DNA from: Xestospongia bergquistia
Lineage: Eukaryota; Porifera; Demospongiae; Haplosclerida; Petrosiidae
Reading direction: 5' to 3'
Assembly (NCBI GenBank): GCA_963965975.1
Contig: OZ014411.1
Location: forward strand, 11,663,501-11,727,500
Length of the DNA stretch: 64,000 nucleotides
Shown: piece after piece, positions 1 through 51,200 of the stretch
Layout of the letters: each line of letters opens with the position of its first letter
Position numbering within the stretch: position 1 is the first letter of the stretch
The notes under the pieces: model-generated
The model's database searches: none
What the model was told of the DNA's origin: nothing
Seen by the model: only the letters and a program-made list of their open reading frames with translations
Program-made: the position numbers and the translations under genes

Positions 1-1960
1 TACATATGTTATATTATAAATCCCAAATGTCAACATTTAAACACACCCTTGTTAATATCAAAATCTTCTTTTTACTCTAAATTACTAAGAAGTTACGAAA
101 TTTATCCAAGTTATTGTCAAGGTAGTAACAATGGTTTCTTGGAGGCTTTATTCTTTTAGTAGATTATTGTATGTTTTTACTGTTAGTTTACTATGTTAGT
201 GGTGAAATGGACATTTAATGATTTGTTTGTTATTACAATAGGAAGGATTGTCGGCTCTTCATTATGCAAGTAGTAGAGGCCATACTGATATTGTTGAAAT
301 ATTACTCAACCATAATGTTGATATTGACATTGTTACTAAGGTAACTGATATCATGAGAACGAGTGTACTTTACTCTAACATTTAATCTTAAGTATAGAGG
401 TAGTAACTAAACTTTAAAATACTAAGCCTCAATTAACAAATGAGATCTGTTCATTACAAGTCCATTAATAAATGTTGCACCTCCCAGATATGTGTATAAA
501 TTATTATAGACTTTTTTACTAATACGTTTTAATTGGAGATAATGTTGTCTAGGTTTATAATGTACTATTGTATGATATATTCCATTTGCAATAGTATTAT
601 TAAAGAGAATAAATAACAAATTATTATGATATGTACTCTTGGTTGACATGAATGTGTTTGTTGTAACATATTTAGGATGGATGGACTCCACTTTTGTTAG
701 CTGCAGCTAATGGTCACAAAGATGTGATTTTAATTTTAATACAGAGAGGAGCTAATGTAGACCTTGTTAATGCAGTAAGTGTTCAATGTGCATATGTTAT
801 ATTATAAATCCCAAATGTCAACTTTTTGAGCACACCCTTGTTAATATCAAAATCTCCTTTTTACTTTAAATTACTAAGAAGTAACCAAAATTATCCAAGT
901 TATTGTCAAGATAGTAATTATTTTTGATTTGTGTAACAATGATTTCTTGGAGGCTTTATTCTTTTATTAGATTATTGTATGTTTTTACTGTTAGTTTACT
1001 ATGTTAGTGGTGAACTTGACATTTAATGATTTGTTTGTTATTACAATAGGAAGGATGGTTGGCTCTTCATTATGCAAGTAGTGGAGGCCATACTGATATT
1101 GTTGAAATATTACTCAACCATAATGTTGATATTGACATTGTTACTAAGGTAACTGATATCATGAGAACGAGTGTACTTTACTCTAACATTTAATCTGAAG
1201 TATAGAGATAGTAACTAGACTTTAAAATACTAAGCCTTAATTAACAAATGAGATCTGTCCATTACAAGTCCATTAATAAATGTTACACCTCCCAGAATGT
1301 GTATAAGTTATTATAGACTTTTTTACTGATACATTTTTACTGGAGATAATGTTGTTTAGGTTTATAATATACTATTGAATCATAATTATATTCCATTTGC
1401 AATAGTATTAGACCTTGTTGATGTAGTAAGTGTTCAATGTACATATGTTATATTATAAATCCCAAATGTCAAACATTTAAACACACCCTTGTTAATATCA
1501 AAATCTTCTTTTTACTCTAAATTACTAAGAAGTAACCAAAATTATCCAAGTTATTGTAAAGGTAGTAACAATGATTTCTTGGATGCTTTATTCTTTTATT
1601 AGATTATTGTATGTTTTTACTGTTAGTTTAGTATGTTAGTGGTGAACTTGACATTTAATGATTTGTTTGTTATTACAATAGAAAGGATGGTCGGCTCTTC
1701 ATTATGCAAGTAGTAGAGGCCATACTGATATTGTTGAAACATTACTCAACCATAATGCTGATATTGACCTTGTTACTAAGGTAATTTATATCATGAGGAT
1801 GAGTCTGCTTTACTCTAACATTTAATCTGACATGTATAGATAGTAACTAGACTTAACCATGCTTAGCATTAATTGACAAATGAGATTGGTCTGTTACAAG
1901 TCAATTAATATATTGTACACTTGCCAGAGAGGTGTATAAATTATTATAGACTTTTTCTGA
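1..1960 (+). repeat. Three tandem genomic copies of an ankyrin-exon unit
   Basis: The same block recurs beginning near positions 1, 788 and 1438, introns included. Each copy shows the same opening (ATATGTTATATTATAAATCC), the same intron text and a 99-bp ankyrin exon with its splice sites. The first spacing is about 787 bp. The second is about 650 bp because copy 2 has lost nearly all of its second ankyrin exon; only its last bases plus the donor survive near 1410-1430. The third copy fades out near 1960. The very high identity of intron sequence indicates recent tandem duplication. Confidence 0.9.
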
Positions 1961-2737
1961 GTCTATGCTTTTCAAGGTTATTAGACGCAATTTGACTAAA
2001 ACTTCTAAAGTATATTTTAATTTTCTAAAAATCAGTATATTTATTGTTCCAAACTTTTTTAAAAATAGGTTGTAGTAACTAATTCAACACTTTATGTAAC
2101 TGAAGGATGTTGGATATTAAAGATAATGCTTTTGAATGCATTTAACAAGGAATGACTGAGTTTTAAGTATAAAGTTAATGAATGCTGATGATGAACTACA
2201 GTGGTAGTCATGTACAGTGGTAGTGTTAACTCATGAAGAATATGAAGGGGGATAACAAACCTTACTAGAATAGTTTTGTTCATGACAGTAACAAAAAATT
2301 TCTTTAAAAAGTCGTGCATTTTTAAGAAAAGTTAAGCAAAGAAATAAATATAAAGCATATTCTAAAAGAAAGGAAATATAAAGATGGCTAATATCAGTAC
2401 AATACAAAGAATGCAAACAAGATAATAGGGATGACAAATGCATCATCCCTACATAATAGCACAGATGTTTCAATCAATTTAGGATACTCACCAACTGTCT
2501 AATTCACTTAGTATTATCACTGATATATATTTGCATTCTATGCTTATGCTATTATGTAAGGATAATGTCCTATTATCTCATATTTCTGGCAATGTTAGTC
2601 TATGACTTCTTTAGTAATAATCTACTTTACACAGGATGGTAATACTGCATTGCATATAGCCTGCAAAGAAGGTCATATAAGTGTTATTCAATGCTTGTTA
2701 TCTCAAGGAGCAGATACGACTATTAAAAATATTGAGG
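242..2737 (+). other. Ankyrin repeat exons, one repeat per exon
   Basis: Exons 242-340, 676-774, 1050-1148 and 1682-1780 are each exactly 99 bp, phase 0 at both ends, and encode one 33-residue ankyrin repeat (for example ALHYASSRGHTDIVEILLN; the second is TPLLLAAANGHKDV). Exon 2635-2737 gives the last repeat (TALHIACKEGHISVIQCLL) and ends in phase 1 at a GTAAG donor. If that donor is not used, the frame reads on to a TGA at 2815-2817, giving a short ankyrin-only ending. Symmetric exons mean whole repeats can be gained or lost without a frameshift. Ankyrin repeats are protein-binding surfaces; the partner cannot be read from sequence. Confidence 0.9.
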
Positions 2738-5700
2738 GTAAGATTCCATTAGATGAATTTTGTGACACATCCAAGGATGAAATTGTTGGTTGTTTCTCTA
2801 AGCATGATCCAAAATGAGGTGAGGTATTAAACAACAACCATGTAGTATTCCTAGTTGTTTAATTTGTGATTATTTAGTTTTGGAAGATGTGTCTAAATGG
2901 AATATTGAATACCTCAATGAAGAGCAGGTTTTTGAGAAAGCAGACTATGGAGTCAAGTTTGTCATTCCACCATCATCAGTGGAAGTAGGGCGAGAAGTCC
3001 AAACTGAAGTCAAAGTAGTTGCACCAGAGGAATCACAAATCACCCTCCCTCATGATGTTGAGCTTGTGAGCTGTTTCTATAAGATTGAAATAACAGGAAA
3101 ATTCTCCAGACCTATTGAGCTTCATCTCCAGCATAACGTTGAAATAAGGTCACAAGATGAAAGTCAACAGCTTGCTTTTATAACAGCTAAAGGACCACCA
3201 CCTTATAAGTTTGAACTTGTGCCATTTGATATCGATCAAATGTTCAAACCTTATGACAATTCTGGTGCTATAAAAGCGTGTGATTTTTGTGTGTTCAGTA
3301 TTGTCAAGTTGCTAAAAAGTGTTTTCTGTCTACAACCTTCTTCCACCTATGTTATGACAGTTTTCTTAAAGCGAATTTTAAAGTCCAGTTGGGTAATCCA
3401 AGCTGTAATCACAAAGAACCTTGGACCTTTTATTAAGGTAGTCAGTTGAGTAATGATGCAAACTTTGAAACCACTAACTAAAATTTTCCTGTTTTTGCAC
3501 AATTATCAACTTATAATATTGTGTACTTTTTTTCTGTTCTAGAGAGTAGACACAGATAAAGTTTTTGAGAATTGGAAACAGATTGAACAATTCTCTTTCC
3601 ACTTTGATCCAGAGGTCAATAAGGTGACATACTTACTGGATAATCATTGTTATGAAGTTGAGCCACTGAAAATACCCTGTCAAGTAAAGATTTTAAAATT
3701 TGTTGCATTGGTATGATTAATATTTTTGACAAGGTCACAAAGGAAGATGTTGATAAAAGTCGTCCTGACACTGCTCTACTTTACTTAAAGTTTGAAGCCA
3801 CACATAAAGCTGAGCAGAAAAAGCTTTCAAATTTAAGGATTACATTTAAAGGAACGAGAGATGAAGAAAGTGTAATTATTACTAGTGGTGAATTACAATC
3901 AATACAAAGCCACAATGGTATGATACATAAAGATATTTGTTAGTACTGACTTTATTTTTGCTATCATATAGATAAAATTATTGAGTCAACTGCTCACTCT
4001 GTCTCAAAATACATAGAGCCCTTATCTCAAAAAGAAAAACCTAATGATTTATTATGTTAATTAGCTAATTTTTTCCTTATAGTATGATAACACTTTCCTT
4101 CCTTATTAGGTAAAGAGCCTAAGAAAGAACACCTGATGACACTACTTCACCTAATTAAGTATAAATGGAATGCTATTGGAGAACAACTTCAGGTGCCATA
4201 TGGTGATAGAATGTCTATAATGTCTGTTGGAAGCAATGTGCCATATGATGATACCAGAAAACTCTCTGAAGTCCTTCAAGTTTGGATGGATAGAAAAACT
4301 TGTGAGGTATCTTGGAAAATGATCATCACTGTTATAGATGATCCTCCAATTAAAGAAAAGGGAGTAGTTAATGAGATACGCAATTTTTTAGCAAGATCTG
4401 ACATCTGGAATGAATATCTCCTTTCTGATCAACCTGGTAAAATTAAAATGATATTAATTGATAAAATCATCTTAGAATTGTATTGGAAGATCCTGACCTT
4501 ATAGTAAAACATTGATTAGAACTACAAAGATAGTATTATTAACAGTAGTGTCTGTGGAAGACAACAGCTATAGAATGCTAGAAATATAGGCAGAGAAGCA
4601 AGCTATTGAGATGCTTCATCAAACATACTCATCGTGGTAGTACTCATGGTTAGGGTTAATTGATTCATAGGATGCTGTATGCTTTGGCAGTTGAAGCAAA
4701 GATCGCTTTCTATTGTGACTTATAGCAATAGTCTGTAATAAAACGAAGTGAATGAATGTAATTATATTCAGATGCAATTTTGTCCATAATGATTCTAAGA
4801 TGATCTGACAAGCTGTGTATGTTTGGCAGTAAAAATTATATTAAATTTTATTTAACAATAATTCCTGTGTCACTCTAGGTCAAGTGATTACCACTTTTAA
4901 TTCTGTACCTCCAGTTCAACCAAAACTTATTGGCATAAAAGGTATAACTATATAACTATAATGTTAAATTATGAAAATGACTAAAAGGTAATTACACAAT
5001 AACTGGGCAAAATTCATGCCATAAACTTATTTGAAGAATTTAAATATTTAATTATATTGTTTTTAGTAGAGATGGATGAAATGGAACAAGAAGCTCCCTT
5101 ACAGTCATCAAATCCTATTGGAGTATGTTAATTATTACTATGATTTATTGCTATAACATGTGATTTCATAAACTTTTATATATTGTAGTACAAATGGTTA
5201 TGCAAAGATGCAAATGTTCTTCAGAAGTTTAAAGTACATGCATAATAAATAACATTTCAGGTTGATAAATCTCTTTATATGCACATGTTTACAGTACAAT
5301 TTTAAAGGCTAATCAACTTGTTTTTACTTCCATCCTCCTCTAAAATATATATTTAGGTGATTGCTGATGACTGGAGTTAATAGAAATGAGATAATAGAGG
5401 CTTATTAACATTGGCTTAGTCTGCTCACAATGAAATAATAATTATAATATAAGATTCTGCTAAATACATTTTTAAAAATTACCTTGAAAAATATGGGCTG
5501 ATCATATTGAACCAATTAGTGGTCAATTCTGTAAAGCTACTATACTGTATATAATAATAATATTTGAGAATGCATGTAAGAATATGACATATGGATCTAT
5601 CTTTTAGTTTGCTGCTCATCATCTTTATAAACATGCTGAACAATGGGAGGAGAAAGATAATGATATGATAGTAGCTACTAAACGTATGGCCAAACTGATG

Positions 5701-8700
5701 ATGCATATGTCCAAGTTTGCCCAGTAAGTGTTATAGAGTTAAATGTATATTTCAATTTGTAGTTTATTTAATGTTAATAAATGTTCCATAGAAATAAACA
5801 TAACAAATAAAAATATTTTTACCTGTAGTTAATAGTCTCTAATTTAGCGTTGACACTAATACTAGGCAATGTATCACGGTTGGTTTGACAATAATTATAA
5901 TAATCTTTCTTTTATAGAGGTGAAGATAGTGATGTCAATTCTAAAGATTTTATCCAGACAGCTAATCTTATTGTTAAAGACAGCAATAAGGTTGTTAGAA
6001 TAGCTACACAAGTTGCTGAACTCTGTACAAATACAGAACTGAAAAATGTGAGTTACAGAGAGTAACAAAAGTATTTATACACACTGTATCATTTATGTTT
6101 GTATGTGTAACTAATAAGATTGTAATTAACCCTTGCTGCTCACTGCGAGGATGAAGGCTACAGAACTCGGTTTGTGTATGTGTTAGTACGTCTGTTAGTA
6201 CGTCTGTCTGTTTGCTGTTAGTTGGCAATACATTATGAAAGATAAAAGGCTGTCAACTGAAGACAAAACTTGAAAAGTAAGAAAGACCTTTCAAAAAAGC
6301 ACAGGCAAGACAGAACAGCTGTTTGATTGAATAAGAAGTACTATGGGTACAAATTACAACTTTATTGTTGGAATTTTCCTTAAAATGTTTCATTTTTAAA
6401 GTTATGGCGAATTTAACTTACCTTGACTGCCTTCTTTACCAACTATTATAACAGTAAATATATTATAGAGAAGAAAATCTTGTTGTCATAAGACTACTGG
6501 TATAGTTGCTTTTGCAAAAGCAATATTAATTAAAATTACGCAAGTTAGCAATCAAACAGAGTCTTAAAAGCTTCCACTTGACTGTGACTTTCAGGGCCAC
6601 TCCCATTAAATTTAAACTGCAATGCCACACCTATAGTTTTCTACTATAAGCCTCGTACACAGGCGTTCACGAAAGAAATGAACGTCTGGTTACTACTTCT
6701 TGCGTATACACATGATTATTCAAATATATTGACATCATAACTACAACATATTTAAAAAAAGGAGAAACAATAGACTGGGTTTATGTTGACGTTTTATTCA
6801 CTATAGGCGTCTTTCCATTCATGATGGATCACAAGCTAGGTCTTGGCTATCACATTTAAATCAAGATGATCACATACATGTTGGTGATAATGAAGAATCA
6901 TCAGGTTGTTCAATCTTGCTTGTGTCATCATGCATCTGAGATAGGATTTGATGAGATGAAGGGCACTAAATAAACGCTCGGAAGTTGCGTTTGTTGCAGG
7001 TAAGATCAGGATCAGCTGAAAAAGATGGGAAACTGCACTAACTAGCATTCTCTGTGTTGTGGAGAAGGCTTAACATTGCAGTTTTAATGCTATCAATTGA
7101 TGGCATTTCTTCAACTACAACTGAAGAATAGATTTGATAAAGAGTACATAGCTGAGACTCCAGTTCAACCTTATCAAAGTCATCAAAAAAGAAAGAACAC
7201 ACTGAATCTAATTCTTCTTTGAAACACTACCCTGTACATGCCTTGAAAATGAGCTGTTCCACATTGGAGAATGTTTGGAAGCCTTTTTGGTCAAATCTCT
7301 TACGAATGCTCATCACAGAGAGATCAATTGCTTCAAAATACACACAACGATATTCATCTTCAACAGATATAGAAAACTCACTTTGAACACTGCCTTCTTC
7401 AAAGCGTCTTGGACCTTTCCTTCTCCTAGGTAGGTTATGGCTCATCAACATCAAGCTCCTGCTGGCATCTAATTTTTTCAACCTTCTGCCAAAACAGGTT
7501 GAAGTTTTCAGCTGTACACATGCTTTCGAGAGTCCTTACTGTCAGCATAGCTATACCTTGTTCTTCAACACTTGAAAGTTTAGGCATCTGCAAAGTCTGA
7601 CGTAGTTTGTCAGTGTGTCGCAGGATCAGTTCTGAAAGTGAAATACCAAACAGGAACTTGAAGGTCTGCATTTGACTTGCCACTCCATGAGTCCTAGCCT
7701 TGATTTCGGTGTCAGATGTAGCAGGTATGGCAACCTCCCATAATGATTGAATGCTGTCATAATTAGTGATTATGCTGGCAAGTGACTCTGCACGGACTGT
7801 CCATTGTTTTGGACATAAGGTGCGTACACCAGAAGCATCATTGCCACTCTTTTCTTTCATGTCTTGTAGCATGGCTTCTCTCTTTGGAGAGAACTTGATT
7901 AATTTAATAATTTCATAACATGTGTCTAGGTAGTCCTTCGTAGGACGTGACTGCTTGATTGTGTCACTTACAGCCAGGTTGAGGGCATGCCATAACATTG
8001 TAGGAACACTGCTCTGGGCTCTAGCTCCTGTATCTTGGTGGCTTCACCTGCTTTTGCTCCAGCCATAGTGCTGCATCCATCATAGCAGTGCCCACGAATC
8101 TTTGTCAGGGGAATCTGGAAGGCATCCTTCATGACCTCCACAATACTCTGTGCATCAATTGCTGAAAGATAATACAGTCCTACAAACTCTTCAGACACAA
8201 TAAAGTCTTCACTGATCCATCTCAAGACTAAGGTCAACTGTTGTTTATTTGACTTGTCTGTTGTTTCATCAACCATGACTGCTATGAAAGAAGAACTGTG
8301 GATATTCTACAAAATCTTTCTCAGAGCATGATGAGCCATCAGCTTTAACATTTCGATTTGGTTCTCTGGAGAAGTATGCTTGTATGCAGACTTCTTTATC
8401 CATTTTAAAATTTCAGGCTTATCTTCTGCCCTCAACTGATGTAGCTGGATTAAAATTGATGACTCCTCTACATCCCCACGAAGTGCAAGCCCTTGTCGAG
8501 CAAGAAAGCAGATACTTGCCAATATCAAACGCAGCATATCCCTTGCACACTCTTTATCAGCTTTATAAGCTATGTCAAGCTGCTCTCCTACGTCTTTTGT
8601 CAACTTTGGGAGTGTTACAATGGCTTCAACAGCTTCATGGTGGGCTTTAGATTGTTGATGCTTCGTAAAAGCAGCTGTTGCATCTTTCCAATTACAGAAA

Positions 8701-9906
8701 CCTTTAGTAACCTAATCATCGATAAGTGAATTTAATATATTTCAAACTGCTTGCTGCCATTGATATCGTACAGTTCGTCGATCGTGAATTGATTTCGTTC
8801 CCACCCACTGGCAGCCAGGTGCGACCAAGACTTAATAAAATTTATTAACTCATTCGAAAAAAGTGGTCAGGTTAAAACTGTACCAACCATACCGGTGGCT
8901 ACGGCCTTGTACAAGCGAAAGAGGCTTCCACTTGTTCAGTACAATTGGGATCAAAAATGATTGGGCTTCATGAATAACTGGTTGATCCATCATTAGAGCT
9001 ACTAAAGGACTTATTATCAACACAGAATAGCCCTTCTCACTGGCAACAAGACCAATCTTGTGATCTATCATAAATTAGAGGACTTTGAAATGCAAAATCT
9101 TCCCAAAACCAGTATGTTAGTGACAACACAAAGATATCTTTTCCGTTATATACAGCTTCAAAAATACTCAAAAAAAGTACAAAAAGTACAAAATACTCTT
9201 ATTTATTCAAGATAGATTTAGTCTTCCTAGCTGCTTTAGATCGAAAAGTAGAGTAGCAGAGAAGTTTCTGTCTGCACTATAAGTTACCATTGTAGATAGT
9301 GAACATTTGGGTAAAGGAATTTACGTCAATGTTGACAGAGAATCCCTAGAGAATACCATTTTCTAAGGAATCTGTGGAAATTACACACATGCACAAGCAG
9401 TAGTTAATTACCAGGTGTTCTTTTCTTTTGTGAACGTGTTAGTATGAGTCGAGGCTACAGCTATCATCTGTATTATTTGCATAAAGTAAGGAAGTCTTCA
9501 TATAATTTTATGGCTATATTATTCTAACTAATTATCAAGTCCTCACTCAGTAGCAGCATGGCAATTGCAATCAATTAAACATCAATTCAGAAACCTTTGC
9601 AAGGGTTCATTATACTTTGGTAACATTTCTTATATGAATTAGTGGAATCTGCAATTTTTCTTTACACCTGATTTTGTCTTTACATTTAATAAATGTTGTA
9701 TATTCCTTAACAGACTCTGTCACAAGTTCTTGATGGTATTCCAAATACTGCAACACAACTCCAAATTAATGTTGGTGTACATGCAAGACAAGGAGGAGAT
9801 GGTAAGCTATGAACTGAATGGTATTAGTTACTATAATTGATAAACAGAAGTATATACATATGAATGGAGGGATGGATAGATAGATAGGGAGATAGATAGA
9901 TAAATG

Positions 9907-9968
<62 letters not shown>

Positions 9969-10456
9969 TTATATATGTACTTATTTAAGCATGATAATAT
10001 TTCTCCTTAAAAATAATTAACTTATAAGAGTAACAAAAGTAAATAATGTATTAGTCATCTTTGTTAAACAATAATTCATCCTGTAAATGTAAAAGTAAAC
10101 TATATGATTTATTTACATTGAGTTATTTGGTACATTGTGTCTTAAAAGAGTAACTCCAGTCCACACAATGGGTGGATAATATACCTTTTATCCTCAAATT
10201 ATATTGTGTGTATACAGTATATGCATATATGTACTTTCTATGTAGTATTATATATGTACCATCTCTACCTTGTTTGTGCTCCTTTGACATTATAGATCCT
10301 GAAGCAAATAAAGAATCCATTAAATTGGTGACAGTCAATGCTGAAAGTCTCATGACTGCAGTCAGTGAAGTACTTAATGCTACTGAGAGTGCTTTCATAA
10401 AAGTACCTCCAGAAGCTCGTGCACATGTGACTCAACTAAACCGGGTTAAAAAATAA
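242..10456 (+). CDS. Ankyrin-ZU5-UPA-death domain gene continuing into a vinculin-type tail (5' end outside window)
   Basis: Proposed exons: 242-340, 676-774, 1050-1148, 1682-1780, 2635-2737, 2878-3437, 3543-3683, 3734-3917, 3972-4055, 4110-4436, 4879-4941, 5067-5122, 5608-5723, 5918-6047, 9714-9801, 10296-10456 (TAA). All have GT donors and AG acceptors and all junction phases agree, including death-domain exon (ends phase 1) to linker exon. Domain order: at least five ankyrin repeats, ZU5, UPA-like, death, acidic/proline linker, vinculin tail. Ankyrin-ZU5-death proteins are cytoplasmic signalling or scaffold proteins; vinculin tails bind F-actin and acidic lipids. The fusion is inferred from continuous strand, phase and lack of any other vinculin exons upstream. 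The weakest junction is the 50-bp intron 3684-3733, where the reading frame must change. Alternative: two genes, the first ending at 4504 and the second a tail-only gene. The true start codon lies left of the window. Confidence 0.72.
2878..3437 (+). other. ZU5 domain exon
   Basis: The exon enters in phase 1 after a TTTAG acceptor, matching the donor at 2738. It reads VLEDVSKW..., then a ZU5 core with the typical YGVKFVIPPSSVEVG start, the TLPHDVELVSCFYKIE segment and the EDL/FELVPFD-like end. ZU5 folds occur in UNC5, PIDD, ankyrins and ZO-1, usually before UPA and death domains, and act in interdomain contacts. Donor after KNLGPFIK at 3438. Family assignment is by motif recognition, not by a profile search. 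Confidence 0.82.
3543..4055 (+). other. UPA-like region, three exons
   Basis: Exons 3543-3683, 3734-3917 and 3972-4055 lie between ZU5 and death domain, where UNC5, PIDD and ankyrins carry a UPA domain. The text (for example YLLDNHCYEVEPLK, ALLYLKFEATHKAEQKKL) suits a beta-rich fold, but I recognise UPA mainly by position. The first junction is doubtful: reading straight through 3684 gives a stop at 3714, and the chosen 50-bp intron uses a GTAAAG donor and an AAG acceptor at 3731-3733. A frame error in the assembly there is the alternative. Confidence 0.55.
4110..4504 (+). other. Death domain exon, with alternative read-through stop
   Basis: The six-helix death-domain pattern is clear: KWNAIGEQLQVP, KLSEVLQVWMDRKTCEVSWK, then MIITVIDDPPIKEKGV and IRNFLAR. 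Such domains pair with other death domains in apoptosis and innate signalling. The exon can be spliced at a GT at 4437 (after SDQP, phase 1) into the vinculin-tail exons. If the donor is ignored, the frame runs 22 more codons to a stop at 4502-4504. An AATAAA at 4737-4742 could end that shorter transcript. Confidence 0.85.
4737..4742 (+). terminator. Possible poly(A) signal for a short death-domain isoform
   Basis: AATAAA sits 233 bp past the read-through stop at 4504 and before the first linker exon at 4879. It could end an isoform without the vinculin tail. AATAAA is common by chance in AT-rich DNA, so this is weak. Confidence 0.35.
6836..8715 (-). pseudogene. Dead hAT transposase (TTF-finger/DUF4371 type)
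   Basis: Reading on the minus strand from 8715: a zinc-finger remnant (FCNWKDATAAFTKHQQSKAH), DUF4371-like segment (FLARQGLALRG at about 8480), the catalytic-region start (VDETTDKSNKQQLTL near 8270) and HCYDGCSTMAGA, and finally the hAT C-terminal dimerisation motif (ILPATNATSERLFSALHLIK) at 7020-6840. At least three frameshifts and a stop near 8300 break the frame. hAT proteins are cut-and-paste transposases with 8-bp target duplications. No clean terminal repeats were identified. Confidence 0.85.
8850..9125 (-). pseudogene. RecQ-like helicase fragment
   Basis: On the minus strand a Walker A-like stretch (TGFGK, near 9110) is followed by a stop, then VASEKGYSVLIISPLVALMMDQ, which is the motif I/Ia region of RecQ-type ATP-dependent DNA helicases. 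Only about 70 codons remain and the end is unrelated. It is a retro- or transposon-borne fragment, not a working helicase. It sits beside the hAT remnant in the same intron. Confidence 0.65.
9871..9960. repeat. GATA and AT microsatellite
   Basis: A GATA/GGATA-rich run at 9871-9902 is followed by an almost pure AT dinucleotide run up to 9960. It lies in the intron before the last vinculin-tail exon. Confidence 0.95.
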
Positions 10457-13993: not shown

Positions 13994-15550
13994 TCAATAA
14001 TAGAGACTACAATTATCTCCATGCATTTCACTCTGATATTCTTCCTCTTGATGCATGTATCTTTCATAATGTTCATCAACAATCTGAAGAATATTGACCT
14101 CATTCTCTCTTATTCTTAATTTGTACCATTTAGCTAGTACTATGAATACTAAGAGAATTACAAAAATAACAAGACTCTTAGTAATGTAGTAATAAACGTT
14201 TGGACAAATAGTCTGGTTATCACAACCAAAAGGAAACTTTGTGTTAATATTTATAAGATAACCCATTCCAGTTGAGGCAAACCACATTCCAACCATCATC
14301 CCTCTTATTTGTACTGGAGACTGTGCTATTGTGAACTCTAGAGATACTGGAAAAATTAGTGCAAATGCAATGCCATACAATGTCTGTGGGATTAGCAATA
14401 GGTAATGAAAAGATGACAAGATATTCCAATGATCATATTTAAATATGACCACAAGAGACAATGTGGTTGCCATAGCAAAAGCTAGTCCCAGACCTATTCT
14501 CTTCAGCATACTGGGAATGTATTTATAGAAACAGGGATGGATAAAGAATTGATGTAGAAGCAATATGGAAACTGAAGTTATAAACTTCATTGTGTTATTT
14601 GAAATAAAGCAAAATTTGAATGATGAATTGCCAGGATTAGAACCTAGCATTATACTCCAGTATACTTCATCAGCACAGGTAAGTCCAACAACACAAATCA
14701 TAAGTGGAATCAATCGTAACACTGTCTTCACATTCTCTACTTCCTCTTCTGAAAAAGGTCCACCATATTTTTCCTTACCTAGATCAATACGTGAAGGATA
14801 TTCTTTCTCCCAGTATGTTAAGGCACTACGATTCCTAGGGTACTTATTCTTCCAGGCATAGTTCAGTACTTCAGCAATCATTTTGATAGGGTTGGTAATC
14901 ATAGGAGTAGTTTCAAGCCAGTGCTTTAAAAGTGAAAATGTTATTAATGTCAAAGACGCTGTTACTCCTGTTACTACAAATGACAGAATGAGAAAATAAT
15001 CAAGGGAACACCTTCCAATTTGGAAAACAGTGAAAGCAGTTGGCAAACTAATACTATGCCAGTATATATAACTGCTTAGTTCATCTGCCGAAGCACCCAT
15101 AAGCTGATCAATATTGAATTGAACTATATTAGCTCGAAATCCAATATAACCAACTATTGTACAAAGAAGTCCAATTGCATGCAGTACAAAAAACATTACA
15201 GTATTTGGCCAATATTCCATTATTATATAGATTAAACCAGAAATAATCCAGACAATTAAGCTCAACCAGATACCAGTAACTATAATCTTATATCGCCCTG
15301 TCCACATATCGGCTATTAATCCAAGAAAAAAGCACATGAAATAGATAATACAAAACCCTATGTCAAAGATGATGGCTGTGGTAGAATCTGGTGTCTTATT
15401 CTGCTGAACATCGGTGTACACGGTACCTGCAAAATATCTTAAATAGATAATGTAGTTATACATCAGAGCATCCCAAACAAGTACCAAAATGGCTGGTCGT
15501 ATACTCAAACGACACAAATGAATAGAGAATCGAGACTGATGACTTGTCAT
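13994..15550 (-). CDS. POT/SLC15-like (PTR2 family) MFS transporter, single exon
   Basis: 518 codons with no intron. About twelve hydrophobic spans fit a major-facilitator fold. The strongest clue is GLIADMWTGRYKIIVTG (about residues 77-93), which matches the POT/PTR2 family signature (GxxxAD...GRYxT). A central cytoplasmic loop carries KYGGPFSEEEVENVKTVLR, typical of this family just before TM7, and GFRANIVQFNIDQL fits the second PTR2 region. Family members use proton gradients to import di- and tripeptides, nitrate or related solutes; the substrate here is unknown. The E-x-x-E-R-like motif of TM1 in classical peptide transporters is not evident, so specificity may differ. A TATATATA run lies only 11-20 bp upstream of the ATG on the coding strand. 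The frame is intact, unlike its transposon neighbours. Confidence 0.85.
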   Translation of the reverse strand: MTSHQSRFSIHLCRLSIRPAILVLVWDALMYNYIIYLRYFAGTVYTDVQQNKTPDSTTAIIFDIGFCIIYFMCFFLGLIADMWTGRYKIIVTGIWLSLIVWIISGLIYIIMEYWPNTVMFFVLHAIGLLCTIVGYIGFRANIVQFNIDQLMGASADELSSYIYWHSISLPTAFTVFQIGRCSLDYFLILSFVVTGVTASLTLITFSLLKHWLETTPMITNPIKMIAEVLNYAWKNKYPRNRSALTYWEKEYPSRIDLGKEKYGGPFSEEEVENVKTVLRLIPLMICVVGLTCADEVYWSIMLGSNPGNSSFKFCFISNNTMKFITSVSILLLHQFFIHPCFYKYIPSMLKRIGLGLAFAMATTLSLVVIFKYDHWNILSSFHYLLLIPQTLYGIAFALIFPVSLEFTIAQSPVQIRGMMVGMWFASTGMGYLININTKFPFGCDNQTICPNVYYYITKSLVIFVILLVFIVLAKWYKLRIRENEVNILQIVDEHYERYMHQEEEYQSEMHGDNCSLYY

Positions 15551-17189
15551 TATTCTAACAATATATATACTTGTCAGAATTGTCCTAAGATTATTTGATG
15601 GTACTGCTGCTGTGGTAAGACAGAGACTGGATTACTACTAACTTTGAAAACTGGAGAGTTGGTAGACGCTACGGAAATGATCAATGACGTTTTCTCACTA
15701 TGATCAAATTAAGCCCTGGCTAATTTAAAGCGCTCGCGGTAAAATAATATTTCCTGTTATAGTTAAATATGTATGTGATGACATCATAATTCTGTATGTT
15801 TTCGGCCTATTGTTGTTGTTGTTTTTAAATGTTGTTGTTCTAAATTAGATGATAATAGTTATAATGTTTTTATAAATACAAAATACGCTTTTGAACCAAA
15901 AAATCACCAAAATCTAATTACAATGATAATAACAAATTAAAAATGTGAATCTAATAATAAAAAATATAAATTTTGTTAAAATAATCTACATGTATGTATA
16001 CAACAAAGGGTTAATCATGAATTTAGTTAGAATTACATGTAATAAATCAGTACATATTCATCTAGTAGTTAGTTACCTACAATACAATTACATAATAGCT
16101 ATGTATAACTATCACAATAAAGCTGACCTATTGATAGTGGTACTTTCAGGGAACAAGGAGTGCTATCAGTATTACCACATGAAGTAATAATAATAGACAA
16201 TAAGAATAGACAAGCAATATTTTTGATTTTATTATTCAGTGATACATTGAAGATAAGAAATGTACTGACATGTTTTGTCTTAGTTGATCAATCTTAGGAT
16301 TCATTCCCGTAGGATGGTACAATTCAAGTATGGGAATCCATTTACTGTATTAATTTAATTTATTTTTTAACTTAATATTACATTTTTTCAACATTTCATT
16401 TGTTTATCTATTTATTTGTGTGCCAAATAATTTATCTTTTAATATGTTTACTCTAAATAGTTTATTTTTTCACCCCAGCAGCTGCATGACTCCTTTTATA
16501 AAGAGCTCTTTTTGTGTACTTTTTGTTACACACCTGAAGAAGACCAACCAGTGTTGAAACACTGTGAGAAAATTATAAGTTATTTATTACCTGTTGTTTC
16601 TCTATTTATTTTATTCTGATTAATTAACAAAGATTGCACTATTGATTATATCATATATGGATTAAGAAAATGAAACTGTATGTCAGTGTGACATATCATT
16701 GGTTGATTTATCCAATATATTATAATACAGGTTGCGAGTAAAGAAATTAGATGAAATTTTAAAGGAAATGTAATACTGTTTGATTAATAGCGTACTATGG
16801 AATTGACAGTTTTAGAATCATTCTTTGTCCAAGGCAATCCTTTATCACCTGTTCTCATCACAAAGTAACTTATAATCTGAGCATTTGTGAATGGTAGCAT
16901 ATGCTGCGTAGATGAATAGGGCAATCTGTTATCTAACCATTCTTCAGTAGGTAAAAGGGAAGTAGTCATTTTATCTGACTGCCTTGAATTATCTGAATCT
17001 ACAATATGCTTGTCCCATCCATTCATTTTTTTATTTTTATTAAAACACAAAAGATACTCAATAACAAAACTAATATGAAGAGCATCAAAAACAATAGAAA
17101 TAGAAGGTGAATGATTTATGAAGAGTGATGATATTAACAGATGAACAAATGAATAAATATGAACAACATGTAAGCTATATTTCTGATAA
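15551..17189. other. Intergenic, no recognised gene
   Basis: AT-rich sequence. An 88-codon minus-strand frame at 16784-17050 (WLDNRLPYSSTQHMLPFT...) has a less AT-driven composition than the surroundings and may be a repeat-borne coding remnant, but I do not recognise it. The plus-strand frame at 15945-16187 looks like chance. Confidence 0.5.
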
Positions 17190-42200: not shown

Positions 42201-45200
42201 GAGTCATTTTGTAGAGAGAATTGTGAGGTATGTATTGTAATGCAATCATGCAGTGTGTTTGGATTCATGTACATATAAACAGAGTATTGATCATTGTATT
42301 GGCTTTAAACAAATGTAATAGTGGATTGAATGTTACTCAGCATTGATGCATATTTGATGAAAATTCAGACAACTCAAAGTTGTGTTTCAATGTCTCTCTA
42401 CTTCTCCAAATGGTACTTACAGTCGTCTTTGATAGGTTTAATCTTCGACAAACAGATGCCTGAGTTTCCCCTTTTTCAATATCAGTGATAATATCTAACT
42501 TTTGGCCAAAAGAGATTGACTTCTTCGATTTTGCCATTTTTTTCCTCTCAGACACGTGACCAGGAAGTACGTGATAAGCAATTTATTTACACACGGTGTA
42601 GTAATTAGTAGTACGGCTTATAAGAAAATATGTATTAACAGTGTGCGTGTTAACAGATACGCTTTGTATGGTATGTAGTGACAGTGGTTATTGTGTCATG
42701 TGATTTTAGTATGCAATATCTGAGTGTACGTACTATCATGGGTACTTACTAGTGATGTTTCACTGTACTTCATGAAAGTTTTGTTAATAGACATGTTAGT
42801 GATTTGTGTATCAAAAATTTTTATGTTTTTTTTCAAGCAATAATGCTGACAAACCTCACTAAAATGGAAAAATTGTGATGCAATGATACTGAAATCTTGT
42901 GACAATAGTAGTAGTCTGGCTTTAAACTTGCCCTTTTATTATTTATAATCAAGACACTAGTTGAAAATATCCTCTCAGAAGGTACTGAAGTAGCTGGAAT
43001 ACACAATAGCTGTTTAGATACTTTTGATAAAATGGGGAAATGATGGTGGTTTAATTTCAACCATTTGAGTAGATCATTGTTAGGATCAGCTGCTGGTTCT
43101 TTAATGAAAACATCCATTTCATCATGTGGACTTCTGGTGTCACTTCTCCTTCCAAGACTTTCACCTAAAAGGTACTCAATAGCACTTTGTTTTAGGTTTC
43201 TTAGTGGTAGGTTCTTCAAATTCGTTATCACTTTCATGAGTTTCATCTTCATCTACTTGTGTTGCCTCAGCTAACTTCTCCAGTTTACTATATGTTAGAA
43301 TACGTTGCTCATTGCTTAGAAATTTCAAGTGGTGATACCTGGGGTCTATAACTGATGCTAATACTGAAATATGTTCTGCTACATTCTCACTGTCAGGATT
43401 GAATCGCTGTTTTAGCTGGGAGGTTACTGTTTCTTTGAACAGCTTTATTCTAAGGGGATCATCTGATAATGACACAAGATGTTTCTTAAGCAGACCATAC
43501 ACAACAAGGTAAACAGAAGATAATGAAGCATGGTTTTCACTGCAGAAAGCAGTAGTAGCTACTTGTAATGGTTTAAGCACAGCCAATAGCTTCAAAGATA
43601 GTTCCCACTGCTCCTCTTTAAGATCTAGTTTCTTGTGATATGGTTTACTAACAGTATCATCGTGTAAGACTACTGTTTTTAAAGCTTTCTAGAACATGCT
43701 GTTAGGCTACTGATATCAGATAGGCTAAGACTAGCACCAACACATAATTGTAGAGTATGGCCAAAGCAGGGAATATCAGGCCATCCAACAAGGGAAATAC
43801 CAAGGACCATATTGGCACTATTATCTCTGACTATACCTGAAATGTTATCTTTATTTAGACTCCAATCCATAGCTGTCTTCCAATCTCTCACAAATATTTA
43901 TACCTAATATTTAAATATAAATAATTATATTTACTACCTACATGGAGACAAACCTGTATGTCTTTCAGGCATCTCTTTAGTCATCAAAATATAACTCTCA
44001 ATCATCCACTCCTCGTTTATAAAATGAACTGTAACAGTCAAATATGCTTGAACTGCTAGACTAGTCCACAAGTCGCTTGTTAATGCTACATGTTTTGTTT
44101 GATGTTTAGTGATCAAATGCCCCCTTTCTGAATGGTATAGCTTCTGGCAGACACTCCTGACATGCGGTCGAGATGGCACTTGATAATTAGGTTCAACATA
44201 GTTCAAAAGTTGTCAAAATCCATCATCCTCAACAATACTAAGAGGACCAGGTCTCTAGCTACTAACTCGGCAATAAGCGTCATTATTTTCATTGCATTGC
44301 TGGGTGGACACTTCCTTGTATACTTAAGCCCACCATACACTATGCAACATATTTCTATCAACAAGTTGCTAGCAACTTGTTGCTCAATGTACCCCATGCA
44401 TACACTATGCAACTTGTTGCTGCAATAACTGTAATAATAATTAACAACACTGTAATAATAACTAGTATAACTGTAATAATAAATGGCAGATTCAACATAT
44501 GCTGGTGCCTGTGGAGTTGTAATAGCTGTAATAATGGCAAAAAGACGCAGAAGGAGGAGGAACCGGACAATATGGGTTAGGGATTGGATAAAAAATCGCC
44601 CTTCACATGGAGCATACCATCACCTTCTAAAAGAGCTCCAATTGAGTGACTAATAGTGGCTCATTCTATTGCAATTATAAGCAGAGTTTTAGTATTGTAC
44701 TCTTGGCAGTTGTCGATGCTGATTACAAATTTGTGTATGTCGACATTGGGTGCAATGGAAGGGTATCGGATGGAAGTGTTTTAGAGACAGTACAATGTGT
44801 GCTGCACTCGAAAGCAATTCTTTGAACATTCCGTCACAAGAACCACTACCTGGGTGTACTATACCAATTCCGTACATGTTTGTGGCAGATGAAGCTTTTC
44901 CGTTGAGAGATTACATACAAAAACCTTTTAGCCAGATTGGTTTGACAGTTAAAAGAAGAATTTACAACTATAGGCTCAGCCGTGCAAGAAGAATTGTTGA
45001 AAATGCCTTTGGAATCTTAGCCAATCACTTTAGACTTTTAATGTCACCAATTAACCTTGCACCTGAAAAGGTGGAAACAATAGTTTTAACATGCTGCCTT
45101 TTACACAACTACTTGCGGTCACAACCAGGTGCTCGTGCAACTTACACTCCTCCAGGCAGTCTGGATAGTGAACATCCTGAAACTCACCAGGTATATCCAG

Positions 45201-48200
45201 GTCAATGGCGAAATGAGAGAAAGATCCAATGTTTTGAGGATTTGAAAAGCAAGGCAGAAATCATACAAAAGGTACTTCAAAGCTATATCATGAATACCTA
45301 ATGGAGTACTTTAATTCTGAAGCAGGTGCAGTGTCTTGGCAAAATAATATGATATAACAGTATTTACCAATATCATTAATCAATATCACTTGTTGACTGT
45401 CATTATACTCTATATATTATATTATCATCATATTATCACTTACTTCATTCATTTGCATTTAACAACTTTTATCAACACTTCTTTAGTCTTATTACCGATT
45501 ATGTAAAACTAACTCACTGTTAAATTAGATGTAGTAGTCTTTGATGTCATGAAATCATCAAGAAAATGTAATTGGTCAAAATGTGGCCACATGCTCTTAT
45601 AGACGTCGTCACTTCCAGTACTAGTGGGTCTCTTTTTAAATTTCTGCCTTTCTCTTCCATACTGGGTACGGATGTTTCTGATTTTTTTGGTAACCTCCTT
45701 CTCTAAAAACAAGATGGAAAAATTCAGTCTTCCTGAAATAATATCTTTAAATTAATGGCTGAAGTTGTGGCAGACAGTCAAATTGTGTAATACATTTCTA
45801 AATCCACAACCCAACCATTATCATAAGGGACACAAAATAATGTATTGCCTTCAGTCAAGACTCAGCCACTACATAATATTTACACATCACACCTTCCAGA
45901 GCATCAGAAATTTCTTTAGTAGCTTTTCTCCTCAAAGTTCTGTCGTGATAACATTTATCTTTAGTGTTATACAAACATGGACGATCTTGTAGTAGTTCAA
46001 TAAGTTCAATGACTTTAGCCACAGTCCAGTGACAAGCCATTAGGGGAAGGATGTTATCATTTCGAATATTTCCGCATATTTTGGTATACTAGAAGAGGGC
46101 GGGGGGGACCATGCCTCTAATGATGACTTTAATTCATCATCTGTTGATAATAATATATGATATTATTGATATAATAATATCATTCATAGGGTTGGGTAAA
46201 TTATGCTACTTTTGTTGAGCATTATTCTAATTAGCAATGCTTCAATATTGGTATGATTATTCTCTTACATTTTATTAATTATGCCACTCTCGTTTTTATT
46301 ATGCTCGTTAATCGTAACACAATATCCACAATCTAAACAATGTTTGAATGACATTTCTAATGTTAAATGACATAGTTCGAGGTTATTAATTTTGGCGCTC
46401 ATTGTACTGTAGCATTATAAATGTTTCTACATAGTCATTCAAAGAGTGAATCTACTGCTCAGTAAAAGAAGAGGTCAGAAGAGAAAAGACACATTCTGGG
46501 GCTGCAGAGGATAGTTGTATGCTTTAGGCTAATTTCCTCACGGCAAGCTCTACAAAATAGTTTTGATATAGAAATGACTAGATGTTCACCTGGAAATTCT
46601 TTCAATCTCTGCTGCGGGCTAACTCATACGGTTCCAGAGCTGGAGGACGACGAACACCATCGTTTCCCACCTCTTCTGCGATTTCTCAGAATTTTCCGTT
46701 TTCTATTCTGCGTTGCTACACTTGGAGCTTTCAGTACGTCTAAAATTGATAATGGCTCATCGTCACATTCGGATTCCGAGCCAGAGGTCATAAAAGAAGT
46801 GGACTCTTGAGCGTCAGTTGTCTCTTCGGCCATAACGAACAACACACGTAGTTCTCTAATTAACGCACAGGGTTTTACACATGATTATGCTGGCATAATG
46901 CTTTATGCCAATAGCTTTTCATTATGCCAAAAATTATGCCGGCATAAATTACGCAACCCTAGTCATTCACGTCTATGATATTGATACTATCTAACTATCT
47001 AAAATAATATAAGTGGCTATATTTTCTTTTACTATAGGTCAGTTATAATAATGTCAGGTAAATTATTATTATACTGTATACATCACTAATATCAGTTATA
47101 GGCAATAGTTATTACTAAAATTAAAATGTAACAGTACAACTTTTGCAAAGAAAATTCTCATCTTCAATTGTACTGTCACAGCATGAGATATGACTCCATA
47201 AGCCACAGGAGTCACATTGGATCCATAAAATTTGTTCACCATTAGTGTCCTCATCATCCTCCTTCCAGCATACACCACACACTTTGACATTGGTTTTAAC
47301 CATCATCTTTTCAATTTTTCGTTGTTCTTCTATTGATGATTTAGCCCATCGTAACTTTGTCATTTTTCTCTTTTTTTTTTTGTTGAAAAAAACCTATGTT
47401 ATTTCACATGATTTGTATTGGGAGCTGGAGTGATAGTGGATATGAAGTTTTCTTTATTTTCTGAATTAAATTTTGCTTGGAGAACTGAAACAGCTGATTG
47501 AAGGTGAGATTTCACTGTTTTTAATGTATCTACATCATTACATGGTTGTATAAATGAAAGCAATTTATGTGTTATATTTTCTACATCACTTTTTAACCAT
47601 TAATTGGGTCTGTGTGTAGTATATGTGAAAAATATTCGCAAGTATTAAATTGTATTTGTGGAGTTTCAGCTTGGTCATCAGTTTCCATACTTGGTATTTC
47701 CATTCCACTCTTATTTTCATCCTCACATTCACTTTCTGTTTCTTTGTCATCACTTTGGCTATTGTATTCTGTCATGTCATCATCTTTCTGATCTTCTAAA
47801 CATTTGTTCATTTTTTGAATAACTTTATACTCGTCGTTTTGTCTAGAAATAGTCATGTGAAGGAGATGCATGTGCTTGCATATTGTACTATGTAAAGTAG
47901 CATCCATGCATGTACAGGTGTACATATGAACACATGCATTGCACATTGAGCAACGAAGTGGACAGTCACACTCTTGTTGTAGTTGTTGTAGAATATAGAA
48001 AGTACCTGTAGCATTGAGTGACTCAATCCTCCATGTATTTGTGTCCCGAGATAGATATAAAGTGGAATGCTTCTGTAGTTCTACTGTGGCTTTGTGTCTC
48101 ATGTTTATCTCACATTTCCTGTTGGTCATCTTCCCTTTCTCCATTTTTTGTAGTTGTTCAAAAATTAAGTTGCGTGCTATGCAAAGGAGGACATGAAGCA

Positions 48201-51200
48201 ATCTATCTACACGTCAATTCTGCATATTATTTAAATATACTACTTTTAAGATTCTATGGAATGACTCTGTGAACATGTTTGTATTTACTATTGTGCCAAC
48301 TCTATGGCATGTTGCCCATTCATCCACGTGAGGCACATATTGCTTTATAAAATATTCATAAAATCCTTCATATTTGTCATTCAAGTAAGACATCATTTGT
48401 TGTAATCTTACTGTGAAGTGACTAACTTCTCTCTCTAGTAATAAAACCCGTAACTGGTGGTAAATTTCCACCCTATCTTGCTTGTTGGGTACATGGTCAT
48501 TAAGTGCTTTCCGCCAAGCACGGTCAACATGCCATATGCACAGGAGTTTGCGAGTCTTGTGTGCTCCAAAAACACCACACCAAGCTTTGAAATATTGCTT
48601 AGCACAATCTGACATAAAATAACATGGTTTAAATCTCCTATACGTGCATGTACAGCTTTTAAGAACTGTACTAACAAGCTGGTATTTTCTCTGTTACTGA
48701 TGGCCCATGCTACAGGTAGGCCAGCACCATGATCATCAATAACAAAGATAGATATGAGCTGAAAATCATACTGCGTAGTGCAATGAGTAGCATCCATTAA
48801 AATACACTTATCACCATACTGCTTCATTGCATCTTTTTGAAATTCTGTTTGCAGTGCAAGTAGGAAATCGTCATTAGCTAAGTTATCCATAGCGTCTGAT
48901 TACTGTTCTCCTTGCTGTTTAAATATGAGCACAGGGTTATATGGCATTGCTCTCATATCCTCCACCCAAGAAGTACTTAAAAGGTCATTTGCATTTTTGG
49001 TGATGCTACCTAAGTTGAGATGACGTTGAATGTTATGAATATCTTGTCGTGACAGTAACTGTTCATGACCTATTGTATCATTTGTCATTTTTTCTCTTAT
49101 ATCATCTAGGATTTTGTCAACTGATACCCCATCATGTAATTTAGCTGCTACTTCGTGCTTAATGTCTGTTGGAACTGGAAGATGGACAAGTTCAACAGAG
49201 TGACTGTTATGCATTGGACAGTATTCAACAACAACCTGACCTGTTGCTATGTCCTGCATAACTTTCATGTGAGCTATGCATGATTTTCCAGTTTTGCAAG
49301 ACCCTTGACTTTTTGTTAGTTGTTTACCTTCACCTCTAAAGCGTCCTGTTCCAGATCTATTACAGTAGAGGTGCCAGTATTTAGTACTACCATACAATTT
49401 AGCAGACTAATTCTGTATGTAGTATGATTTAGATGTTTTCTCCTCTTGTACTTTCCATTCATTGAATTTTGTGAAATTTTCAAATGAATGTGTCTGGTTG
49501 CCTATCTTCATGTTATGGGCATTTTGAAGATGTGAGATAACACCTTGTATCGTGGGAAATCTGTAAGAATGTGTCATAAATGATCAGTATTATTACAATA
49601 TAACCACAACTAACCTAGAGTCACACAAATTACAGTCAATACTGCTGCTTGCTTCTTTTTTTGATAAGTGTTTATCTCTCTCTCATGTGCCGTGATAATC
49701 CACTTCGAAATGAAAATGTTTTTTCACAATAAAAAGAAGATAAATGTGAAGTTGATTTGACCATTATGTAGTTGTTAAAACAACTATTATATTATTATTA
49801 TCAATATTACAATGACAACTAACCTTATGTAATATTATGCAGTATAATGTAGTATGGAAAGATTGATATATACAAAAAAGGAAGATAAGGTAATTATTGA
49901 TTGTAATAATTACCTTTTATTGTAAGGTAAATTTTAACGTTTGATTGTAAGTTATTTGACAAAATATATCAAATAACTTACAATTAATAAAAAGGAAAAG
50001 AAAAACCAGTAAGTTCACAAAGTCCAATAAGTTCACAAGTTTTCACTCTGGCACGTCAGGTGCGATTATTAATTATTTAATATTTTTGGGTGTGGTGCTT
50101 TAATGCTGGCACGAATATAAATTATTTAAGATTTGTGGGTGTGTGGTCCCCCCACCCTCTTCTAGTATACCAAAGTATGCGGAAATATTCGAAATGATAA
50201 CATCCTTCCCCTAATGGCTTGTGTCCATTGTACCTTCCGCCATTTTCTATTGACCACGCCTCTTTTTATTAACTATGTTTAAGTTTATTAACTAAATACC
50301 AGTCCATCACTATGGCAACCTTTGAAGTTGATTGCACATGTTGCAAGGAATAGAACGGCTCTCTATTCCTTGCAACATGTTGCACAGACTACACAACAGA
50401 ACGAATTGTCATGTAACATTGAGCAACATGTTGCTTGCAACAGTGTTACTAGCAACATATTACATAGTGTATGGTGGATTTTAGACATCACTGTCTGTTT
50501 CTTGCCTACTTCCAGATCACCAAAACATTTTTTGGCTTCATCCACGTGTTTTCCTTTCTAATGTTTTTGAAGGTTTGATGTTCCTCCTCTATCTGCTAGT
50601 TGTGTCTTACAAAGATTACAGGTTATTTTAGCATCGTCTTGTTTAGTAAAATATGCCCAAACAAGACTAGTTCTTCTTTTGCTCAAAACTAAAAAAACAA
50701 CTTAATAAGCAAATTAGGATACTACTACCTATATCCAGATATTCAAACAACAGATTAATTAACTGGATGAACAACTATCTGTTCCAGCCCTAGAATATAC
50801 ACAAGTCACACACACCTTGATTACGAACCTTGTATTCATGCTCTATCTTTTCTTTCTGTTTGTTAAGTTTTTCCTGCTGTTCTCGAGTCTGTTTCAGTTA
50901 TGCCTTAATCTTCCATTGGTACTGGTCTTTCTTTTTTGTTCTTCTCATCTTATTTTCTTTCCCTTTCAATTTTTCTATTCAATGATTATTTTCTTTCCCT
51001 AATCTCTTTCGATTTTCTTCACTTGTGATACCTTAGTAAAGGAAAAAGGATTAGATAAAACAGGCAACGTCATATGAGATACTTGTTTGATCAACATTGT
51101 AGCCAGCGTTCCAGTTGGCTTGAGTGGATTGAGAGGTTGATTTCTACTAGCTATGTTTATGTCAAGCTGTTTTATCTTATCTTCGATACAAGATAATAAA

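Follow-up and report, generated by a model that had tools for sequence, protein, structure and literature searches.

We analysed a 64,000-nt stretch of the genome of the demosponge Xestospongia bergquistia (assembly GCA_963965975.1, contig OZ014411.1, positions 11,663,501 to 11,727,500), hereafter the window, which carries on its plus strand (2635-10456) a gene model of 12 exons in which ankyrin, ZU5 and death-domain exons run on into a vinculin tail. All introns are GT-AG and their phases are concordant. The exons read, in order, last ankyrin repeat, ZU5, two middle exons, a short exon, death domain, two linker exons (LK1, proline-rich, and LK2, acidic) and four tail exons, and they are preceded in the window by four one-repeat ankyrin exons (starting at 242, 676, 1050 and 1682; Table 1). 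Pfam Ank, ZU5 and Vinculin all score above cut-off in this copy. The tail matches Vinculin at 5e-33 (profile positions 683-834 of 852), and its best solved relative is VIN1 (6bfi, 6e-29), which we take to be a sponge vinculin; alpha-catenin, considered as the tail's source, is weaker (1e-9 versus 6e-29). A frameshift between the two middle exons (3710/3716) was also considered and rejected, the site being a 50-nt GT-AG intron common to relatives.

The original prediction for this locus placed all exons on one strand, ended the death-domain exon in phase 1 at 4436 and had phases agree through the linker to a full vinculin tail, all of which is borne out, with GT-AG borders throughout and a five-helix tail complete with its strap. 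Its domain order, ankyrin-ZU5-UPA-death, fared less evenly: Ank and ZU5 exceed their cut-offs and Death is weakly detected at the family level, but UPA is undetected, and a profile scan of the window copy returns neither Death nor UPA. The prediction also overlooked a TGA at 2815-2817, the last full codon of the ankyrin exon, where the 21 other loci all have a sense codon (CGA in 15, CAA in four, AGA in one and AAA in one). Because of this codon, ankyrin and ZU5 do not form one open frame in the window, so that the predicted single fused protein is strongly supported for the gene family, by its junctions, frames and tiny introns, but not for this copy.

The tail intron (6048-9713) holds an inserted, degenerate transposase-like element, with a match to Pfam DUF4371 (3.4e-10) at 7968-8306 and no Pfam match for its pieces at 7435-8043 and 8307-8711. 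Given the nonsense codon and the transposon, the window copy is probably a broken or inactive member of the family. Its ratios of nonsynonymous to synonymous substitution rates (dN/dS) against loci L009-L012 are loose (0.59-0.94 for the death domain, 0.73-0.84 for the tail), which fits decay. Here and below, L-numbers denote loci of the genome, C-numbers its contigs and W the window copy.

Table 1 Features of the fused gene and its tail intron in the window
Feature	Position	Strand	Basis
Ankyrin repeat exon	242..340	+	ANK profile 1e-20; Pfam Ank on the four repeats together
Ankyrin repeat exon	676..774	+	ANK profile 4.5e-18
Ankyrin repeat exon	1050..1148	+	ANK profile 4.4e-21
Ankyrin repeat exon	1682..1780	+	ANK profile 2.3e-21
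Last ankyrin exon, in-frame TGA 2815-2817	2635..2818	+	Pfam Ank 2e-10
ZU5 exon, phase 1 in, 0 out	2878..3437	+	Pfam ZU5 24.7 bits (cut-off 21)
Middle-region exon 1 (UPA position; UPA undetected)	3543..3683	+	Gene model; no Pfam or PDB match
Middle-region exon 2	3734..3917	+	Gene model
Short exon preceding death domain; not found in 9/21 other modelled loci	3972..4055	+	Gene model
Death-domain exon, phase 1 in, 1 out	4110..4436	+	Pfam Death in relatives, not in window; profile search of PDB retrieves FADD
Proline exon LK1, phase 1-1	4879..4941	+	Junctions; shared with L030, a relative lacking the tail
Acidic exon LK2, vinculin strap exon, phase 1 in, 0 out	5067..5122	+	Own-genome vinculin L031 exon EVDEMEQEAPLQAANPIG, same splice
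Vinculin tail exon 1	5608..5723	+	Pfam Vinculin
Vinculin tail exon 2	5918..6047	+	Pfam Vinculin; gene model
Vinculin tail exon 3 (actin-site positions I and V)	9714..9801	+	Gene model; residue check
Vinculin tail exon 4 and stop codon	10296..10456	+	Pfam Vinculin; gene model
Degenerate transposase-like element, inserted, not part of the gene	6800..8860 (limits approximate, by eye)	-	DUF4371

Gene family and exon junctions

Across the genome (146.5 Mb, 21 contigs searched), 119 matches to the tail exons group into 41 clusters, of which 28 were read at sequence level. A ZU5 match lies on the same strand within 8 kb upstream of 33 of the 41, and a death-domain match likewise of 33, the pairing having drawn on the best 80 ZU5 and 76 death-domain matches. 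Random placement would pair 0.09 clusters with ZU5, a comparison subject to the non-independence of tandem copies. For three of the 33, the ZU5 is also that of a nearer cluster, which leaves 30 ZU5 sites, one of them fragmentary. The eight clusters with no listed ZU5 comprise three vinculin genes, an adhesion G-protein-coupled receptor (GPCR) gene, a partial copy behind the GPCR gene and three fragments or degenerate copies; one of the eight has a weaker ZU5 match outside the list. Conversely, among the 56 best ZU5 sites, all with at least 61% identity, 27 have no tail cluster. No relatives were found in viral contigs. One degenerate copy (L029, C1:21640500-21646500) has a middle-region exon that continues directly into tail exon 2.

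Twenty loci were fetched for carrying both tail and ZU5; co-occurrence there is by design, and the linkers, junctions and frames are what is informative. In 18 of the 20, the death domain and the tail are separated by both LK1 and LK2; the exceptions are L021, where LK1 was not found, and L022, where LK2 was not. Read directly from the sequence, with the window included, junctions fall at the same GT-AG places in 14 loci for death domain to LK1, 14 for LK1 to LK2 and 20 for LK2 to tail. Among 21 models, again including the window, 14 are free of stops from the last ankyrin exon to the stop codon, four contain one stop each (W, L013, L026 and L018) and three are not assessable (L021, L022 and L023). 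Several LK1 copies carry PPPIPPR or PPPIPPK, which presumably resembles an SH3 ligand. In L010 (oriented, 6331-7071), the LK2 and LK1 exons form a tandem repeat between death domain and tail.

These junctions bear on the alternative that two adjacent genes, one ankyrin-ZU5-death and one tail-only, have been copied together as a unit and give separate transcripts, which would make use of the AATAAA at about 4737 in the window and of a methionine in LK2 that could begin a tail-only product. The intron from death domain to LK1 measures only 34-58 nt in 14 of the 19 modelled loci, and the one before the tail 45-46 nt in four loci, which leaves no space for a terminator and a promoter. In L028, the introns between death domain, LK1, LK2 and tail are 48, 51 and 46 nt, for a total of 264 nt from death domain to tail; the corresponding distances in L026 and L025 are 284 and 286 nt, with two exons and three short introns between, and such spacing in three loci makes separate genes very unlikely. 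We therefore rejected this reading, which we regard as extremely improbable, on the tiny introns and on the junctions, concordant where read directly; the same introns contradict the scenario, named in the original prediction, of transcripts ending at that AATAAA and a new start before 4879.

Selection was estimated by pairwise Nei-Gojobori dN/dS (0.05<dS<1.5, where dS is the synonymous rate) over 19 loci, with L021, L022 and L023 dropped. Median values are 0.55 for the last ankyrin exon, 0.24 for ZU5, 0.34 for the middle region, 0.30 for the death domain and 0.18 for LK2. At the family level, a single predicted protein in which a death-fold domain is joined to a vinculin tail is strongly supported by the order and junctions of the exons, their open frames, the conservation of the linkers, the tiny introns and dN/dS values that mostly indicate purifying selection.

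The ankyrin part varies between copies. Repeats occur one per exon. Upstream of the last repeat, the fetched DNA contains 1 to 22 of them, and whole arrays, counting the last exon, comprise a minimum of 2 to 23 one-repeat exons; these counts are lower bounds, since no fetched locus extends beyond 10 kb. The longest stretch, 22 one-repeat exons in L027 (45-5525), mostly follows a 257-nt period with several exons identical, a pattern that marks recent tandem growth.

Tails also move among copies. On a tree of 42 ZU5 sequences (21 from copies with a tail, 21 from copies without), tail presence changes 11 times, and well-supported branches require at least six of these changes. A count this low came up in 31 of 500 shuffles, which means that the trait is only weakly clustered. 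Near-identical tails in otherwise distant genes (L011/L009, tail dS 0.01 versus ZU5 dS 0.40; L024/L025, tail dS 0.05 versus death-domain dS 0.86) are as expected from gene conversion or exchange. Tails are lost as well, since a tail-less copy within L012 retains LK1 and a truncated LK2.

Origin of strap and tail, and a second host

Locus L031, at C1:25.61 Mb, is one of the genome's own vinculin genes. It has rod exons, two of which match Pfam Vinculin (below cut-off as single exons), as well as a proline-rich stretch and, ahead of the strap-tail splice, the exon EVDEMEQEAPLQAANPIG. The four tail-junction phases (0, 2, 0, 1) are the same in L031 and in the fused genes. LK2 is thus identified as the vinculin strap, from the L031 exon before the same splice and the shared tail phases, and LK1 is probably native to the death-domain gene since it is present in tail-less L030. 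The fused loci have the tail without the rest of vinculin: among the 53 of 106 candidates scored in a genome search with PF01044, none at these loci matched the head or rod (profile positions below 660), in line with the predicted absence of head exons, and head or rod matches occurred on C13 and at C1:25.60-25.62 Mb only.

A tree built from 25 tails places the 21 captured ones, that of the adhesion GPCR included, in one clade (100/99) that adjoins two vinculins of the same genome and lies apart from VIN1 and chicken vinculin; the clade without the GPCR and L021 tails has 100/100. Judged from these sequences, the cassette was captured once, from an own-genome vinculin. Nineteen fused tails are 54-70% identical to the L031 vinculin tail, which itself is 53% identical to VIN1 and 52% to chicken vinculin. 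Three vinculin-like genes, one of them apparently decaying, are arrayed in tandem in L031 and L052 (C1:25.597-25.617 Mb, minus strand). The fused copy L020, at 70% among the closest to vinculin, lies 75-80 kb from this cluster, and its neighbourhood is a plausible birthplace of the fusion. The two actin-site positions of the tail, which we take to be I997/V1001 and essential for actin binding, are I in 18 of 20 copies and V in 16 of 20; the window has both I and V.

The strap and tail also occur in a second host. This is an adhesion-GPCR gene at C3:8.14-8.16 Mb, comprising L053 (C3:8148500-8156800) with L055 upstream, in which exons for SRCR, Ig, EGF and 7tm_2 (Pfam above cut-off) precede those for strap and tail. 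The cytoplasmic part of this receptor passes through eight acidic linker exons, each phase 1-1 and bordered by AG/GT, and stays in a single open frame as far as the vinculin tail, the frame having been followed from the last 7tm exon onward. Read by eye, the tail junctions have the same phases as in the fused genes. In L021 (4700-7930), an array of short acidic linker exons separates death domain and strap, like that of the GPCR gene about 30 kb away, and the tail of this death-domain gene is sister to the GPCR tail (100/99). We rate at about even odds the broader proposal that strap and tail make up a mobile C-terminal cassette, captured once and now on at least two receptor classes (ankyrin-ZU5-death and SRCR/Ig/EGF adhesion GPCR), which would make an apparently undescribed actin-anchored recognition system.

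Proposed function, rivals and known systems

Our preferred reading, to which we assign a probability of roughly 0.6, is a multi-copy family built of ankyrin array, ZU5, middle region, death domain, proline linker and strap/tail that would act as an actin-anchored sensor and evolve in the manner of immune or self-non-self genes. Its exon order, junctions, open frames and the single vinculin origin of the tail are firm at the level of genomic sequence. In the mechanism that we envisage, the protein would be cytoplasmic, its variable ankyrin array would recognise a ligand, and ZU5 and the middle region would restrain the death domain until then. Freed death domains may cluster and recruit a FADD/caspase-like partner, and the headless, unmasked tail would hold the protein on F-actin or acidic membrane, thereby locating sensing and signalling at the cortex or adhesion sites. 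The tail is expected to be unmasked where the head is missing. A sponge vinculin is reported to interact with actin in vitro (PMC6820919), and this, the kept actin-site residues and the headless tail point to F-actin anchoring.

The domain assignments behind this reading differ in firmness. ZU5 is matched by Pfam in all seven spliced proteins. Pfam Death matched 17 of 21 family death-domain exons at E up to 0.5 (best 2.7e-7), and a profile of these exons retrieved only FADD chains from PDB (best E 0.0011). Several observations weigh on the other side. The spliced proteins match Death in only four of seven at E up to 1 (best 0.0021), and the window death-domain exon has no Pfam Death match. UPA has no Pfam match in seven of seven spliced proteins and no match in PDB, a result that does not mean that the fold is absent. 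The HFS motif, through which PIDD undergoes autoproteolysis, occurs in 0 of 22 (ZU5 and middle exons checked), which makes release or activation by self-cleavage unlikely. Structure models had low confidence (predicted local distance difference test 53 for the death-domain exon and 46 for the ZU5 exon) and were not used. The exon finder accepts only GT-AG exons in the phase of the window, so its phase agreement is a consistency check rather than independent proof. Constraint is also uneven: LK1 has a median dN/dS of 0.65 and the tail 0.46, weaker than ZU5; tail values span 0.21-1.98 in 11 close pairs, two of them above 1 on few changes, and the window tail stands at 0.73-0.84 against L009-L012.

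The tail might instead sense the state of actin or adhesion, with lost tension freeing the death domain. Retention of strap and tail, with actin-site residues in most copies, would suit such an adhesion-stress sensor, the function suggested in the original prediction, as would the two adhesion-type hosts of the cassette, vinculin and the adhesion GPCR; yet force sensing by vinculin needs the head, which was not found at the fused loci among the 53 of 106 PF01044 candidates scored, and recognition better accounts for the variable ankyrin arrays and for the lack of a tail at 27 of the 56 nearest ZU5 sites, so that we hold this account unlikely. Another possibility is an integrated decoy, in which the tail mimics vinculin as bait and the death domain is set off when a microbe attacks vinculin or actin. 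Decoys of plant immune receptors are captured, multiplied, exchanged and lost among copies much as this tail was, but the known bacterial ligands of vinculin bind its head rather than the tail, and we consider a decoy distinctly unlikely. That the fused tails act in trans, binding the head of full-length vinculin in competition with its own tail, would be feasible in a genome where vinculin genes with head or rod exons coexist; it leaves the death domain and ankyrin arrays unexplained and seems highly improbable. To return to the recognition-type sensor that we favour, the way in which the family evolves, with its many copies, differing ankyrin arrays and tails that are exchanged or lost, is closer to that of a recognition or immune family, a pattern that could be combined with adhesion-stress sensing.

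Each part of the predicted protein has known counterparts. The fused genes share with vinculin (PF01044) the strap exon, the five-helix tail, its splice phases and the actin-site residues, but differ in having no head or rod match and another N-terminal part. Ankyrins (ANK1-3) likewise combine ankyrin repeats, ZU5 and a death domain, whereas the fused family has one Pfam-seen ZU5, no detected UPA and an added vinculin tail. PIDD1, which carries N-terminal leucine-rich repeats, also has ZU5 followed by a death domain; the fused family differs in its upstream ankyrin array, in the lack of HFS in all 22 and in the added tail. UNC5 and UNC5CL share the order ZU5-(UPA)-death domain, in their case with no ankyrin array upstream of ZU5 as found here.

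Among sponge genes, the NLRs and the Death/TRADD-N expansions of Amphimedon are comparable large lineage-specific death-fold families (PMC12909245, PMC8195603). In contrast to the NLRs, the fused family shows no NACHT among the general Pfam matches of scanned exons and spliced proteins, scans that lay downstream of the 5' exons. Adhesion GPCRs with SRCR repeats are reported for the demosponge Amphimedon (PMC4302439), and resemble L053/L055 in combining SRCR repeats with 7tm_2. The word vinculin is absent from the main texts of PMC12909245 and PMC4302439, and no death-domain-vinculin fusion appears in titles or abstract openings of the openly available literature. If the preferred reading is true, a large, fast-changing family in a probably early-branching animal would link death-fold signalling covalently and directly to the actin/adhesion machinery, and would offer a system for testing how the cytoskeleton is coupled to receptors of immunity or self-recognition. 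The family would also be a clear case of exon capture in which phases and strap exon were kept and the one cassette then spread, was exchanged and was lost.

Other features of the window

Elsewhere in the window, a retrotransposon-like frame with RT RNase H and integrase domains lies on the minus strand (55776-56921), adjoined by 57236-58057, which has no Pfam match. Fragments of DDE_Tnp_4 and MULE/ZSWIM-type transposases occur at 44723-45301 (plus) and 48435-48899 (minus), respectively. A single 545-aa frame on the minus strand (13994-15631), with no Pfam match at 0.001, looks by eye like a multi-pass transporter.

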